64,000 nucleotides of DNA from Fodinibius saliphilus (GTDB lineage Bacteria; Bacteroidota; Rhodothermia; Balneolales; Balneolaceae): NCBI RefSeq assembly GCF_005869845.1, contig NZ_VAWF01000001.1, positions 744,001 to 808,000 of the forward strand, read 5' to 3'. Positions 56,591 through 64,000 of this stretch are shown here, one piece after another (the stretch's first letter is position 1; every line of letters begins with the position of its first letter). The notes beneath the pieces were generated by a model. The model made no database searches, was not told the origin of the DNA, and saw only the letters and a list, made by a program, of their open reading frames with translations. The translations under genes and the position numbers were made by a program.

Positions 56591-58039
56591 CTAACCGACG
56601 CTTCCTTCAAGCTTGATACCAAGCAACTTATCGGCCTCAACAGCAAATTCCATCGGTAGTTCTTGCAACACTTCTTTACAAAAACCATTTACAATGAGTG
56701 AAATTGCATCATCCTCATCCATTCCGCGCTGTTGTAAGTAAAAGATCTGATCTTCACCGACCCTGCTTGTTGAAGCTTCGTGTTCAACTTTTGCAGTAGG
56801 GTTCGCCGACTCAATATACGGGAATGTATGCGCCCCAGAGGTCTGTCCAATTAACATGGAGTCACAAACCGAATAGTTTTGAGCGTTTTCTGCGCGCGGA
56901 CTAATTTTAACAAGTCCACGATAACTATTATCAGATTCACCGGCCGAGATACCTTTTGAGATAATAGTACTCTTTGTATTCTCACCTACGTGAATCATCT
57001 TCGTACCCGTATCGGCCTGCTGACGATTATTGGTTACCGCTACAGAGAAGAATTCTCCGATAGAACCATCACCCTGCATTATTACGCTTGGATACTTCCA
57101 GGTAATGGCAGATCCCGTTTCTACCTGGGTCCAGGAGATCTTGGAATTATCACCACGGCAGTGTCCACGCTTAGTAACAAAGTTAAAGATACCGCCTTGC
57201 CCTTTTTCATCCCCGGAATACCAGTTCTGAATGGTAGAGTATTTAATTTCTGCATCCTCAAGAGCAACAAGCTCTACAACGGCAGCATGCAACTGGTTTT
57301 CCTGGTACATCGGCGCAGTACAACCTTCAAGATAGCTTACATGGCTGTTGTCCTCGCAGATAATAAGAGTACGTTCGAACTGACCAGACTGCATATTATT
57401 GATACGAAAATATGTAGAAAGATCCATCGGGCATACCGTATCTTCCGGCACATATACAAATGAACCGTCAGAAAATACCGCTGAGTTAAGAGCTGCATAA
57501 AAGTTATCGCCTTTGGGTACAACCGAACCCATATATTCTTTAACAAGCTCGGGATGATCTTGGATAGCTTCCGAAATAGAGCAGAATATTACGCCCGCTT
57601 CAGCAAGTTTCTCCTTGAACGTAGTAAAGATCGACTCACTATCGAATACCGCATCTACAGCAATACCTTGTAGTTGCTTTTGTTCTTCAAGGGGAATACC
57701 CAGTTTCTCATAGGTTTCCAGAATCTGGTCATCTACGTCTTCAAGACTTTCAGCCTTTTTACCATCCTTCTTCTTTGTAGATGAATAATATTGAATATCA
57801 TCGAAATTTGGTTTCTCATATTCGACATTGGGCCAGTCGGGTTCTTCCATCTGCTTCCATTTCTCAAAAGCTTCAAGACGAAACTCCAATACCCATTCCG
57901 GCTCGTCCTTGCGGCGAGATATTTCCCGGATGATATCCTCGTTAATACCTGTTGGAAAATCTTCATATTCCACATCGGTGGTAAATCCATACTTATACTC
58001 ACCACCAACCATGGATTCAAGTGCTTCAGTTTCACTCAT
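56591..58039 (-). CDS. sufB: SUF system FeS assembly protein SufB
   Basis: Cluster-building subunit of SufBC2D, 482 residues. [17 protein letters not shown] near the start, [64 protein letters not shown] (with the conserved cysteine) and the C-terminal [24 protein letters not shown] are diagnostic. It is the first gene of the leftward SUF operon. No Rrf2/SufR-type regulator is seen next to it. Confidence 0.97.
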
Positions 58040-58367
58040 AAGTTGATATCTGCGGTATATTTATAATGTGTTTGATAATTGACTAACAAAACGCCAGAAC
58101 AGTGTGCGACGCTCAGAATAAAGACACGGTGTGATACTTGGAATTACAGCCCTTACCTCTAGGAAACAACCTCAGAGACGCTTTCTGTTCCGAGCACGGA
58201 ATATAAACAAACTTACTAGCAACTTAAACTTATTTCAGCGAATAACATTGTCTGTTCTTTGCACATTTCTGCATTCGAAAAATGATGATAAAAGCTTCTT
58301 AATACCAATAGAATGATACTATTTATCAAATAGGTAAAAACTATTTCGGAATTGGTATTATCAACCT
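58040..58367. other. SUF operon upstream region
   Basis: About 330 bp with no gene. It should contain the sufB promoter, but no strong -33/-7 pair was chosen. It includes the inverted repeat at 58300-58360, close to the end of the neighbouring DinB gene. Confidence 0.5.
58300..58360. repeat. 61-bp element with 10-bp terminal inverted repeats
   Basis: TAATACCAAT (58300-58309) and its exact complement ATTGGTATTA (58351-58360) bound a segment that contains a second small inverted repeat (CTATTT/AAATAG around 58320-58334). It ends 7 bp past the DinB stop. It could be a terminator-like hairpin for that gene, a small interspersed element or a regulator site. Confidence 0.45.
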
Positions 58368-58871
58368 TCAAATTGCGGAAGCAATTTTCTTCAATTGATA
58401 AATATGCCGTTGACTATGGTGGATGCTAAATACTATCCACTCTAGCCGAGTTAATGCCCCAAAAAAGGGATGCTCAAAGGTTACTACAAGCTTTGTCAAA
58501 TCTTTAGCTTCGATAAGGCTGGTCATTCGCTGCCTAATATCCTGCAACATCCCAAGCATCTGTTCTTTGTCTTTAGGATTGCCATCAGGTGTAATAGGAT
58601 CTGTTGCATTCATTTTTGTTTCAAAGTCATGCATTCGCTTTTTAAAAACAGGGATCTTGTCTCCGGGCTTCCGATCTATTTCTCTCCCCTCTGCTGTAAG
58701 AAGACGTACAGCACCTCCATCTACCAATATAAGATGTTGACATACCTGTGCTGCTGACCACCCTCCGTTTGGCGGTACTGTATTAAACTTATCTGCTGAA
58801 AAATATGAAATAGTCTTTAATAATGTTTGAGTGTTCTCCTTTAGATCTCTACGCAGTACAGGTTTTTCCAT
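58368..58871 (-). CDS. DinB-family protein
   Basis: A 167-residue four-helix-bundle protein of the DinB/YfiT superfamily. Conserved histidines are in QVCQHLILVD (first helix pair) and FSIHHSQRHIYQL near the C-terminus, suitable for metal binding. DinB-like proteins include thiol transferases, but the role here is unknown. It is encoded upstream of and in the same direction as the SUF operon, separated by 328 bp. Confidence 0.85.
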   Translation of the reverse strand: MEKPVLRRDLKENTQTLLKTISYFSADKFNTVPPNGGWSAAQVCQHLILVDGGAVRLLTAEGREIDRKPGDKIPVFKKRMHDFETKMNATDPITPDGNPKDKEQMLGMLQDIRQRMTSLIEAKDLTKLVVTFEHPFFGALTRLEWIVFSIHHSQRHIYQLKKIASAI

Positions 58872-58991
58872 AATATAATTTCAGTAGTGTTCTGTCAGTC
58901 AGCGGATCTGCCTCTATGAATAAAGTAAGAATATTTAGAAACGTTAAGTCAATAGTTTGTAAAAGGAAATGTAAATTAAACTGTTATTAAT

Positions 58992-59453
58992 ATGAAATGG
59001 GTTAAAAGTGCTATTACAGGATTAGTAGGAAGTTTGGTAATGTTTATTATTATGACAGTTGGTATTAATGTAACGGGAATAGCCCCATTCAATATACCTC
59101 CTTCAGCGGCTTTCCTATATACTCTTGGGTTAAATATAGGCCCACTGCCTGTAATTGTGCATTTTAGTTATGGGATATTCTGGTCTGTGGCTCTTTATTT
59201 TTTCTTAAAAGATAACGTTTCTATCAAGAATGGAATCTACCTGGCAATAGCCCTCTGGGCCTTTATGATGATTGTATTGAGCCCAATTATTGGCTGGGGA
59301 CCTTTTGGCTTTGGCAGTGCCAACAAATTAGCTGTTGATTCTCCTTTATACTTAGAAACGGGTCCTAAGTACCTCATCATGACACTATTACTTCATCTAA
59401 TCTACGGAAGTATTATTGGCTGGGGCAATGGTCAAATTGGATCTAATGAATAG
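58992..59453 (+). CDS. small multi-pass membrane protein
   Basis: A 153-residue protein with four hydrophobic helices (ITGLVGSLVMFIIMTVGI, IVHFSYGIFWSVALYFFL, IYLAIALWAFMMIVLSPIIGW, YLIMTLLLHLIYGSIIGWG). No family recognised with confidence. It converges exactly on the pta gene with no gap. Confidence 0.7.
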   Translation: MKWVKSAITGLVGSLVMFIIMTVGINVTGIAPFNIPPSAAFLYTLGLNIGPLPVIVHFSYGIFWSVALYFFLKDNVSIKNGIYLAIALWAFMMIVLSPIIGWGPFGFGSANKLAVDSPLYLETGPKYLIMTLLLHLIYGSIIGWGNGQIGSNE

Positions 59454-60437
59454 TTACGAATCGCTCATTAATATGGAAACACAAGCAGCATTTACAATAT
59501 CCTGCCAGCTACATCCTCGTGATAGATCCATCATTGGTTTGGCAAGTCCTTGTAGTATAGGTCCTGTTGCACTGGCACCGGCTAATCGTTCGGTTATTTT
59601 ATACGCAATATTACCAGCATCGAGGTTAGGAAAAATAAATACATTAGCCTTTCCCGCTACTTCTGACCTCGGTGCTTTTCTTTCAGCTACATCGGGGACA
59701 AATGCTGCATCAAACTGTAATTCCCCGTCGATTGGCAGATCCGGCTTTTTATTTCTAATGATCCTGAGTGCATTAGTCACTACTTGGATACGTTCATGTT
59801 CGGCACTCCCCTTGGTAGAAAATGACAACATCGCTACCATAGGCTCCTCTCCGGTCAATATTCTATGGGTTCGGGATGATTCAATAGCAATATCAGCCAG
59901 CTGATCTCTATCCGGGTAGGGAACTACTCCACAATCAGCATATGTTAGCACCTTGCCATCTTTTAACACCATCAAAAATGTGCTTGATACAATGCCTGTG
60001 CCCTCCCGAAGTCCAATAGTATGAATAGCTGCCCGAATAACTTCTCCTGTTGTGGCAATGGACCCGGCTACACATCCATCAGCTTCTTCCTTAGCTACCA
60101 AAGCTCCGCCAAGGTAAAGAGGATCTTTCAAAGCGTCTTCGGCCTTTTCCCTGCTAATACCTTTGTGCTTTCGCCGCTCATACAGATAATCAACAAGCGT
60201 CTTATCAATCTCTTTGGAATTGAAAAAAGAGAGCTCCTTTGGTAATACAATACCTTCTTCCTTAGCTGTTTTTACAATCTCATTTTGCTCCCCTATAAAA
60301 ATGACTTCACAAATTTTCTCATTACATAAATATGAACCAGCCCGTAACACCCTGGGGTCGCCAGTCTCTGGTAAAATAATCTTTTTATTTTTAGAAGCTG
60401 CCTTATCTCGAATACGATTTATTACAGAAACCATCAT
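59454..60437 (-). CDS. pta: phosphate acetyltransferase (short form)
   Basis: Interconverts acetyl-CoA and acetyl phosphate, 327 residues. The PTA/PTB domain starts VINRIRDKAASKNKKIILPETGDPRVL and includes DGCVAGSIATTGEVIRAAI, YADCGVVPYPDRDQLADIA, VAMLSFSTKGSAEHE, GELQFDAAFVPDVAERKAP, and ANVFIFPNLDAGNIAYKI. It lacks the N-terminal regulatory domains of long enterobacterial Pta. The ATG at 60437 overlaps the stop of the upstream transporter gene (ATGA). No acetate kinase gene is adjacent. Confidence 0.93.
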   Translation of the reverse strand: MMVSVINRIRDKAASKNKKIILPETGDPRVLRAGSYLCNEKICEVIFIGEQNEIVKTAKEEGIVLPKELSFFNSKEIDKTLVDYLYERRKHKGISREKAEDALKDPLYLGGALVAKEEADGCVAGSIATTGEVIRAAIHTIGLREGTGIVSSTFLMVLKDGKVLTYADCGVVPYPDRDQLADIAIESSRTHRILTGEEPMVAMLSFSTKGSAEHERIQVVTNALRIIRNKKPDLPIDGELQFDAAFVPDVAERKAPRSEVAGKANVFIFPNLDAGNIAYKITERLAGASATGPILQGLAKPMMDLSRGCSWQDIVNAACVSILMSDS

Positions 60438-61291
60438 ATCAATAGTAAAATTGCAATTATAGCAGCAGCAATACCGCCCCATTGTTTATAAGAAACCTGA
60501 TCATTCCAAACCAGTAGTCCCAAGAATGTACCACCTAAGACGTTTAATATATTCACTATGGGATAAGCAATAGAACCATCGATGCCACCCAAAGCATAAA
60601 TTAAGAAAATCGAAGAGTATAAGTTGGGAATACCTATAGCTGCTCCAAGCAACAGTTCCTTTTTTCTGATCAAAGGTTTACTACGTAACAGGCATAACAC
60701 GAATCCAATTATAAAAGCCCCTGCAAAAACCATCCCCATAAAAGTAAGTTCATTGAGGCTTGTTCTAAATTCTTCTTCATAAATTTTAAGAGAGGCATCT
60801 GCAAAACCGGAAAGTACAAAAGTAATCACCAATAACCAGGAAGCACTAATACTTCCTATCTTTACTGAGTTTTTTTTAGGTATTAACATTCCCATTGCCC
60901 CAAATACTAATAATATGCCCACTATTTTAAGAATCCCCAAGTACTCAGCATACAAAAAAACTGAAATCACAACGGGTATTAACAATGATAGTCTCATAGC
61001 TGCAATAGTAATACCAACACCATTGGTATGAACTGATTTCCCATATACTACAAAATTGCCAATGAAAAAGGCTCCAACTATGATACAGAATACTATTAAG
61101 AAAGAACTCTGTGAAAGCACTTCTCCACCGGCCTTTTGGGAGAGGCCAACGCTAAATGCAAATATTGCAGCTACCAGATAGTTTACAGTCAATGTATTCA
61201 GCGTTCGAAGCTCTTTTACTTCGGTCAGCTTTAGCAGGTGGGCAATGGTAAGAGAGCATGCAGAGCTTAAAAGCAGATAGAGATAAGCCAT
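60434..61291 (-). CDS. EamA-like drug/metabolite transporter
   Basis: A 285-residue inner-membrane protein with about ten helices arranged as two five-helix EamA-type halves. LNTLTVNYLVAAIFAFSVG, GVGITIAAMRLSLLIPVVISV and GGIDGSIAYPIVNILNVLGGTFLGLLVW are typical of the DMT superfamily. The substrate is unknown. Its stop overlaps the pta start, so the genes are translationally coupled. It lies 3 bp after the caspase-like gene. Confidence 0.87.
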   Translation of the reverse strand: MAYLYLLLSSACSLTIAHLLKLTEVKELRTLNTLTVNYLVAAIFAFSVGLSQKAGGEVLSQSSFLIVFCIIVGAFFIGNFVVYGKSVHTNGVGITIAAMRLSLLIPVVISVFLYAEYLGILKIVGILLVFGAMGMLIPKKNSVKIGSISASWLLVITFVLSGFADASLKIYEEEFRTSLNELTFMGMVFAGAFIIGFVLCLLRSKPLIRKKELLLGAAIGIPNLYSSIFLIYALGGIDGSIAYPIVNILNVLGGTFLGLLVWNDQVSYKQWGGIAAAIIAILLLI

Positions 61292-61294
61292 TTA

Positions 61295-63055
61295 TTACTC
61301 CCCTAAATCCAACAGTGTATTACCAAGTAATAGCGGATCTTGGGGAGTGTCATGCAGCTTTCGGGCTGTGTACGACACATTTCGCTCTAAATATTGATGA
61401 ATCTCTGATAGATCAGTAATTCTATTCTGTAAAGCTTTGGCAAAGAAATAGGGAAATATATGGTGTTTTTTTCCACTGCCGGTACTGGATATGTAAACTT
61501 GTGATGCTTGGTTAAGCTGCGCTCCGAATAATACGGACCACTTATCTTCGCTACCCAGGTTCCGGATGCTACTTTCTAAAATCCTCTGCGTTTTTAATAC
61601 AGAAATATTAGTGCCCATTGATTGACTAAAGTCTATATCGCTTAATATGATCGTTTTTTCCTTGGTAAGCTTAGAAAGTGTTTTGAAAAGTTTTTCAAGA
61701 TCTAAAACTGCAGTAGCTTCTTCTTTTATATCATTCACTCCAAGGAATTTCAGCTGACTGTTACCTGAAGAACTATCCACTTCTCCATATCCACTTATGA
61801 ATACTGAAAGCTCAGTACTGTCGTTTGCAATAGAACGCATTCTTGAGAGCACCATATTTAGGGTATCGCGGCTGGAAATCTCCCTGACATCAAAAATATT
61901 ATCCGATTTATAACCGAGTGAAGTTTGCAAGTAGGTCTTTATAAGTCGAGCATCACGGTGAGCATAACTTCTCTGTTTATATCGCCCCGAATAATTTTTG
62001 TTAGCAATAATAAGAGCTATTGCATTATCTTTCGACGTTCGCAGAACCGGTATATTTGTTTCAACATCTACTTCTCCAAAAGGCAGTCTCGGTACTGTTA
62101 CCAGTTGATCTTGTTGATTGAAATCTGAAGATCTCCAAACAATCTCAGCATCTTCTTTATGAATAAAATGTTCTGAAATACCATACATCACACGAAACCA
62201 TTCATCATCTTTCGTGCTGGCTATTTTAACTTGACTCCCTTCTCCCAGGTCAGCCACGATATTATTCGTAGTTGTGTTGTCAGTACTGTTTCGTAATGAA
62301 GTAATGCGCGACACAACCTGAGCATATGGCTCAAGAATATCATAAACAGGATATTTGTACTCATATAACGAATCTTTAAACTGGATCGAAATACTCACGT
62401 TCCCCGGATCTGGTCCTGCTATATTTTGATCATTTAATAATTCTGACAGTGGTATCTGAAGCTGTCCATCTGTTAAAGCTCTGATCTCTTCATTTCGAAT
62501 TGTCGAGTCTTGATACTGAACAGAAACATATGCAGTAGCATCCTCAGTCTGTTTTATTGCAACAGTATCTATCCGCACGATATTTCCGGACTTCTTTAAA
62601 AAGCGTTCTTCTCCTGTAGTGCGAGGAGTTCCTACCGCTTTCATATTTAAAAAACCCGCGGCAACCATAGTTGTCCCTACCGCATTGAGGGTCCACATTC
62701 TGGCTTTGGATCTGGTTTTATTGACTGCGTTAGAATTAGCTGCGATAAAGGCAAGAGCGGCTCCACTTAATCCCACCGCGATGAAACCTGGCCGCAACTT
62801 GTACTTTTGAATATTTCGTTGAGCTAGTACCCGCTGTGTATAGCGATATTTAGTGCGAGCCATGAGGTCCAAGCTAAGCATAGATTCGCTGGGACTCACT
62901 TCTCCCCTTTGCATCAGAAAGTATTTTTGACTTATAGTTTCAGGATCAGATTCATCTATTGCTTGTTGATCCTTGACTGTCCATCTAGCGCTGGTACATG
63001 CTGAAAAAATGCACCCCAGTATTGCTATAAATAATATGTTAGTAAATAGTTTCAC
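61295..63055 (-). CDS. caspase-fold lipoprotein with inactive catalytic site
   Basis: A 586-residue envelope protein. Lipoprotein signal ends in IFSAC (Cys20). A short helical region with two hydrophobic stretches (about 90-106 and 125-137) is followed by an SH3-like segment (about 265-308) and a C-terminal caspase/metacaspase-like domain (about 343-586) beginning NAIALIIANKNY. Active caspases have SGHG and D(A/S)C(F/H)SG. Here the first reads SGYG (Tyr423 for His) and the second LSDIDFSQS (Asp475 for Cys), so both catalytic residues are gone. It is likely a non-proteolytic scaffold. It is 7 bp downstream of an outer-membrane barrel gene. Confidence 0.8.
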   Translation of the reverse strand: MKLFTNILFIAILGCIFSACTSARWTVKDQQAIDESDPETISQKYFLMQRGEVSPSESMLSLDLMARTKYRYTQRVLAQRNIQKYKLRPGFIAVGLSGAALAFIAANSNAVNKTRSKARMWTLNAVGTTMVAAGFLNMKAVGTPRTTGEERFLKKSGNIVRIDTVAIKQTEDATAYVSVQYQDSTIRNEEIRALTDGQLQIPLSELLNDQNIAGPDPGNVSISIQFKDSLYEYKYPVYDILEPYAQVVSRITSLRNSTDNTTTNNIVADLGEGSQVKIASTKDDEWFRVMYGISEHFIHKEDAEIVWRSSDFNQQDQLVTVPRLPFGEVDVETNIPVLRTSKDNAIALIIANKNYSGRYKQRSYAHRDARLIKTYLQTSLGYKSDNIFDVREISSRDTLNMVLSRMRSIANDSTELSVFISGYGEVDSSSGNSQLKFLGVNDIKEEATAVLDLEKLFKTLSKLTKEKTIILSDIDFSQSMGTNISVLKTQRILESSIRNLGSEDKWSVLFGAQLNQASQVYISSTGSGKKHHIFPYFFAKALQNRITDLSEIHQYLERNVSYTARKLHDTPQDPLLLGNTLLDLGE

Positions 63056-63062
63056 AAAAATT

Positions 63063-64000
63063 TTAAAGTGATATTACAGCTCCTATACCAACAACGCTGC
63101 GAAATTTAAAAGATTTTCCTATTCCCGGATTCGATAACCAAAGTGGGATGTCATATCGGATCATCAAACCCCGTGGCTTCCCAAGATAATCAGGAATATT
63201 GAGTGTAAACATAAAACCTAACCCTGCATCAGAAAGCAATCTGTCTTCCTCGAAATCAGTAAATCCCAATGAAGTACCGACATCAAAAAAAGCATATGAC
63301 CGTAAATCAAGAAAATTACCCACAATCGAAATATTATCGATCGCTTTGTCAAGTGGGTTTGGATAATCGAGTTCTAAATTTAACGTTGAAAAAGAGGTTA
63401 ATAAAGGAGCACTCCCTCTATTCAGTTGATCGATATTCTGTTGCAGATATCCCCGCAAATTACCTGCGCCTGTAACTTGAATATTTCCACTTTCTAACCA
63501 TGAAGGAGGTATTGTGCCACGGGCTCGAGTTAATCCTTTATCCATCCATCCCACTGCCGTTTTAAGGCCGGGCATAAACAAATATTCTGGAGTAGTCGCT
63601 TCTGAGGCAAACCCGGAATATAGCTTACTAAATAATGTGAAAGAGGACGACAGATGAACTTTTTGTTCAAAAGAAGCCTCTCCCCTTAAAAAGGAATCTA
63701 TATTACCACCTAAATTGGCATCCGCTCCAATAGATATAATATATCTCCCAAGACTATTGTCGGCAGTCATCACAAAATCAATTGTCGTTAAGTAGAGCCA
63801 GTCAGTTTGCCACAGTTGAGGATACAATAAATAATCGGTATCAAACCGGTGCTCAGCTCTGAACCCTGCCGAAAGCTCTTTATAATTATCCTCATTAAAA
63901 CCGTTTTGCCACCGTTTATTAAATGTTAACCCATGCCTCTGCAAACCAGTCCTAAACTGACTGGCTACTTGTATATTCGCTTCACTGCCAAAATCCGAAA
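63063..64000 (-). CDS. outer-membrane beta-barrel protein (5' end outside window)
   Basis: At least 312 residues of a gene that continues past the right edge; the frame is open to 64000, reading SDFGSEANIQVASQFRTGLQ at the edge. The visible part is amphipathic beta-strand throughout (GFRAEHRFDTDYLLYPQL, GNLRGYLQQNIDQLNRGSAPLL, LNLELDYPNPLDKA, RSYAFFDVGTSLGF, LGFMFTLNIPDYLGKPRGLMIRYDIPLWL) and ends in aliphatic strands (SVVGIGAVISL). It is the barrel of an outer-membrane protein; any N-terminal domain is unseen. It is coupled to the caspase-fold lipoprotein gene. Confidence 0.75.
   Translation of the reverse strand, partial: SDFGSEANIQVASQFRTGLQRHGLTFNKRWQNGFNEDNYKELSAGFRAEHRFDTDYLLYPQLWQTDWLYLTTIDFVMTADNSLGRYIISIGADANLGGNIDSFLRGEASFEQKVHLSSSFTLFSKLYSGFASEATTPEYLFMPGLKTAVGWMDKGLTRARGTIPPSWLESGNIQVTGAGNLRGYLQQNIDQLNRGSAPLLTSFSTLNLELDYPNPLDKAIDNISIVGNFLDLRSYAFFDVGTSLGFTDFEEDRLLSDAGLGFMFTLNIPDYLGKPRGLMIRYDIPLWLSNPGIGKSFKFRSVVGIGAVISL

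Follow-up and report, generated by a model that had tools for sequence, protein, structure and literature searches.

A caspase-fold lipoprotein of Fodinibius saliphilus with both catalytic residues replaced

RESULTS

The locus and its gene neighborhood

Toward the end of the window, by which we mean the whole stretch of 64,000 nucleotides that was analyzed from the genome of the halophile Fodinibius saliphilus, a minus-strand gene encodes a predicted lipoprotein that carries a caspase-fold domain (Table 1). The open reading frame lies where the earlier note had placed it. Pfam matches the C14 model (PF00656) to residues 346-566 with 39.8 bits against a cut-off of 21.4, which is the sole Pfam match of the Fodinibius protein itself, and a search of NCBIfam gave no match. 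The claimed SH3-like segment is recognized by the SH3_3 or SH3_4 models in part of the orthologs (Table 1), and the region gives weak profile matches to SH3b chains of the PDB (E 0.14-0.53). The claimed lipoprotein signal is well founded too: the hydrophobic N-terminal segment ends at Cys20, the lipobox cysteine, which is invariant in the 62 aligned orthologs. None of these 62 has Asp or Glu at positions +2 to +6 after it.

Table 1. Features of the locus (positions in the window)
Feature	Position	Strand	Evidence
Pseudo-caspase lipoprotein gene	61295..63055	-	Open reading frame, 586 aa, GTG start; PF00656 E 5.5e-10; orthologs in 75/98 relatives
Lipoprotein signal peptide, residues 1-20, putatively lipidated Cys20	62996..63055	-	Cys20 in 62/62, lipobox-like residues preceding
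N-terminal domain, residues 20-166	62558..62998	-	AlphaFold2, pLDDT mostly >85
Small beta domain, Ig-like, residues 171-241	62333..62545	-	Predicted strands; middling Ig-like structural matches, Z ~6-7.5
SH3b-like domain, residues 242-312	62120..62332	-	SH3_3 in 18/62, SH3_4 in 5/62 members
Caspase-fold domain, residues 339-586	61298..62041	-	PF00656; structural matches Z up to 20.8
Tyr423 codon (TAT), site of the catalytic His	61787..61789	-	Alignments to orthologs and to a His-Cys relative
Asp475 codon (GAC), site of the catalytic Cys	61631..61633	-	Alignments to orthologs and to a His-Cys relative
Outer-membrane-barrel-like gene, upstream, incomplete in the window (full frame, 413 codons)	63063..64000	-	Last residue F/L in 52/54 relatives
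EamA-type transporter, downstream	60434..61291	-	PF00892 E 2.5e-10
Phosphotransacetylase (pta)	59454..60482	-	PF01515 E 4.1e-111

As reported before, the barrel-like gene lies directly upstream. It is on the same strand, with a gap of 7 bp to the start of the pseudo-caspase gene. Its product has no sequence match in Pfam, NCBIfam, or the PDB, and the label "barrel" is based on a signal-peptide-like start, the C-terminal Phe or Leu, and the reading of the earlier note. The genes commonly follow one another as nudix, barrel, ackA, pseudo-caspase, eamA, pta, and some have been lost here and there. The acetate kinase gene (ackA) separates barrel and pseudo-caspase in many relatives; the two are directly adjacent in Fodinibius. 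In the F. saliphilus genome pta is present and a search for acetate kinase at E 0.001 found none, though ackA sits in the block in many relatives. Scans for promoters and terminators gave results near the shuffled expectation, and Rfam had no match within positions 58000-64000.

The neighborhood varies in other ways. The f4 genomes (L086-L092) and one f1 genome (L093, with the order barrel, eamA, pta) have the barrel gene without the pseudo-caspase. At L105:6769-9466 two barrel-family genes stand side by side, and at L085:13854-19001, outside the window and upstream of the block, there is a minus-strand open frame of at least 1715 codons.

Orthologs are found in most of the related genomes searched (Table 1), as a rule one per genome, across one bacterial order. 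In a sample of 395 genomes of the phylum, full-length matches are confined to this order and only the caspase domain is matched beyond it; the N-terminal domain, when queried alone in a sample of 196 genomes of the class, was likewise found only in the same order. The genomes of just 33 of the 98 relatives contain a C14 match, so most members of the family escape the Pfam caspase model.

The catalytic dyad is replaced

The earlier note read SGYG for SGHG at Tyr423 and IDFSQS with Asp475 in place of the cysteine. Both the numbering and the register hold when the protein is aligned by BLASTP with L083, a true His-Cys protein of the same genus: ISGYGE pairs with YSGHGA, and SDIDFSQS with IDACFSGA, so that DIDFSQ faces DACFSG, with no gaps nearby. 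Because a profile comparison yields the same register as this gap-free alignment, we conclude that Tyr423 and Asp475 occupy the sites of the catalytic His and Cys. The protein was also modeled with AlphaFold2 on the basis of 62 orthologs (mean pLDDT 90.4, whole-protein pTM 0.55). Residues 339-586 of the model match metacaspase 4, MALT1, and animal caspases with Z of about 20 (maximum 20.8), Tyr423 lies within strand 415-427, and Asp475 ends strand 467-475. We also considered an intact His-Cys dyad elsewhere in the protein. This is excluded, since the single cysteine of the mature protein is Cys20, the one that would carry the lipid. The domain thus has the fold and profile of peptidase family C14 and lacks the His-Cys dyad of its active members, and it shares with pseudo-orthocaspases a p20-type domain in which at least one dyad residue is replaced.

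The loss extends to the whole clade. Position 475 is devoid of Cys in every aligned member, and the caspase domain has no Cys at all in 56 of 62. Acidic residues occupy position 475 in 56 of the 62 rows, with both synonymous codons of Asp and of Glu in use. The residue is Asp in all 12 aligned rows of Fodinibius, in the 17 readable rows of f3, and in the 5 rows of f5; the remaining f1 rows have mostly Asp or Glu, and a few have Ser, Phe, Gln, or Ile. Position 423 behaves differently. It is His in 17/17 readable f3 rows, all of them with Asp475, Tyr or Phe in nearly all f1 rows, and assorted residues in f5. Among residues of the S1 pocket, Asp473 is kept in 60/62 members and is Glu in the other 2, and the second pocket position, Asp368, is conserved in f1 and lost from both f3 and f5.

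The tree separates the members of f1, f3, and f5 from the His-Cys relatives (support 97/80) and unites f3 with f5 (95/84); the single f2 member (L081) has a long branch and its placement is unsure. Given the distribution of residues over this topology, parsimony suggests that Cys was lost first, about where the clade begins, with an acidic residue in its stead, and that at least two losses of His followed.

An N-terminal domain of long strands

The domain that follows the lipobox is modeled as three strands of about 30 residues each (20-50, 59-87, and 138-166), and residues 89-136 are modeled as a hydrophobic hairpin of helices. Across the 62 members, strands 2 and 3 always have 29 residues and the turn 8, strand 1 has 31 or 32, and the hairpin region ranges from about 45 to 51; Trp25, Arg80, and Tyr85 are invariant among the orthologs. 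Strand lengths so nearly invariant suggest a geometrical constraint, which could be, e.g., assembly into a ring. Foldseek gave no significant match for this domain: the pore-forming proteins among its top matches are non-significant, with E of 0.077 or worse and probability of 0.08 or less. There was also no match of Z 8 or more among the structural chains aligned, which does not imply that the fold is new. Fatty-acid-binding proteins appeared as sequence relatives in the PDB with marginal E values (0.16 and worse) and were not accepted. A plain membrane barrel made of these strands was rejected because of their low mean hydropathy and irregular alternation.

DISCUSSION

Proposed role

The residues at the active site strongly indicate that the caspase-fold lipoprotein of Fodinibius is non-proteolytic. 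The earlier description of an envelope pseudo-protease is upheld, as far as sequences can tell, by the clade-wide loss of the dyad, the lack of a spare cysteine, and the invariant lipobox. On balance, we regard the protein as an envelope lipoprotein whose caspase fold has become a non-proteolytic binding module or scaffold, and which is probably anchored in the outer membrane on the periplasmic side; a scaffold role is plausible. Early in the history of the clade, at its base or close to it, an acidic residue would have taken the place of the catalytic Cys, and the His would have been lost afterwards. The predicted layout relies on a single method of structure prediction (AlphaFold2, with the whole-protein pTM given above). 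It would put three long strands and a hydrophobic helical hairpin closest to the membrane, followed by the Ig-like, SH3b, and caspase-fold domains. The N-terminal part may anchor the protein at the membrane and perhaps oligomerize there, and the SH3b and dead caspase domains may bind a ligand of the cell wall or a protein. Binding of a basic peptide by the caspase domain is possible, since the pocket residue at 473 is acidic in all members. Surface lipoproteins of Bacteroidetes bear an acidic export motif after the lipidated Cys (PMC5080379). Since Cys20 is invariant and acidic residues are absent from the positions that follow it, the anchor would face the periplasm, with the reservation that this motif was defined in other Bacteroidetes. 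Lipidation, membrane sidedness, and oligomerization of the pseudo-caspase are all things that we infer.

Alternative explanations

The protein could instead work with the neighboring barrel protein, as its partner or as an accessory lipoprotein; the earlier note proposed such a partner at the membrane. In most relatives the genes belong to one conserved block and are transcribed the same way, and 53 of 68 well-assembled genomes have both. However, 6 of these genomes have the barrel only and 4 the pseudo-caspase only (5 have neither; these counts ignore the kinship of the genomes), ackA often stands between the two, and since the block includes metabolic genes, adjacency may merely mirror conserved gene order. 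Although the two genes have long been neighbors, this tally and the intervening ackA leave conserved gene order as the only sign of a partnership, which we consider rather unlikely. Less probable still is that the acidic residue at 475, in f3 together with His, has brought new chemistry, e.g., metal binding or another kind of hydrolysis. The prevalence of acidic residues at 475, two positions from the conserved Asp473, would fit such a change, as would the retention of both His and Asp in every readable f3 member, but the residue at 423 differs among members of f1 and f5, and f3 and f5 do not share Asp368, which leaves no complete new site common to the clade. We give about as little credence to a bolder version of the architecture, in which the long N-terminal strands would form a membrane ring or tube whose fold is not yet on record, with the dead caspase domain as its soluble gate or receptor.

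Some dead caspases are described as regulators (PMC6426788), and true His-Cys relatives are present in some related genomes, which might suggest that the lipoprotein regulates an active caspase-type protease or acts as its decoy, like c-FLIP or the trypanosome pseudo-metacaspase. Yet a PF00656 search of the F. saliphilus genome at E 0.001 (family C14 of clan CD) found no second C14 match, and many relatives have no other C14 match either, so the regulatory role that the earlier note had entertained is very improbable in Fodinibius saliphilus. Finally, the loss of the dyad and the fact that most members fall under the Pfam threshold in genome searches are what would be expected of a drifting relic without function. 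The retention of the protein across an order, with invariant residues and strand lengths, speaks against this, and we find the idea scarcely credible. The non-proteolytic binding module or scaffold in the envelope is the reading that we favor.

Significance and comparison with known systems

Surveys of bacterial dead caspases have dealt mainly with Cyanobacteria and Alphaproteobacteria. Searching the literature on caspases in Balneola or Rhodothermia, we found nothing on the present family of pseudo-caspase lipoproteins. This family is order-wide, seems to have lost Cys before His, and has kept an acidic residue; the caspase model of Pfam overlooks most of its members or gives them low scores. 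It is a clean system in which to ask how a bacterial envelope uses a caspase fold that does not cut.

The resemblance to metacaspases, MALT1, and animal caspases is one of fold, with the high Z scores reported above; in the matches listed, identity is 11-16%, and the active-site residues of those proteins are absent here. Closer are true C14 proteins of Bacteroidota (such as L083, L084, and L136-L138). The caspase domain of L083 is about 30% identical, and these proteins share with the Fodinibius protein an acidic segment, VDxExNIP, directly ahead of the caspase domain. They differ from it in having intact SGHG and DACFSG motifs, and several have a CARDB or PEGA domain ahead of the caspase domain where the pseudo-caspase has its long-stranded N-terminal domain. 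L136, L137, L138, and L083 are such His-Cys proteins with CARDB or PEGA, and their catalytic domain is akin to the pseudo-caspase domain.

The nearest known counterparts are the pseudo-orthocaspases, of which PMC6426788 counts 10 pseudo-variants among 1078 Bacteroidetes sequences and names the dyads YS, YA, FS, QC, HA, YN, and YG. The commonest substitutes are reported to be Tyr for His and Ser for Cys (PMC3501461), and the knock-out of a pseudo-orthocaspase in Synechocystis is reported to give higher tolerance of oxidative stress (PMC7889975). As in the cyanobacterial and alphaproteobacterial proteins described in these sources, the Fodinibius protein has a p20-type domain with a replaced dyad, Tyr for His, and a retained acidic pocket residue. 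In contrast, the family in Balneolales has Asp or Glu for Cys (YD, HD, FE, and FD), combinations that are not among the dyads quoted above, and it consists of lipoproteins with an SH3b domain and an N-terminal domain of long strands, spread over an order of Bacteroidota. Some of the 10 Bacteroidetes pseudo-variants of that survey may belong to the Fodinibius-type family. Pseudo-orthocaspases as such are already established; going by the dyads and proteins described in these sources, what sets the Fodinibius family apart is the acidic residue in place of Cys, the lipoprotein architecture, and the retention of the protein across an entire order.
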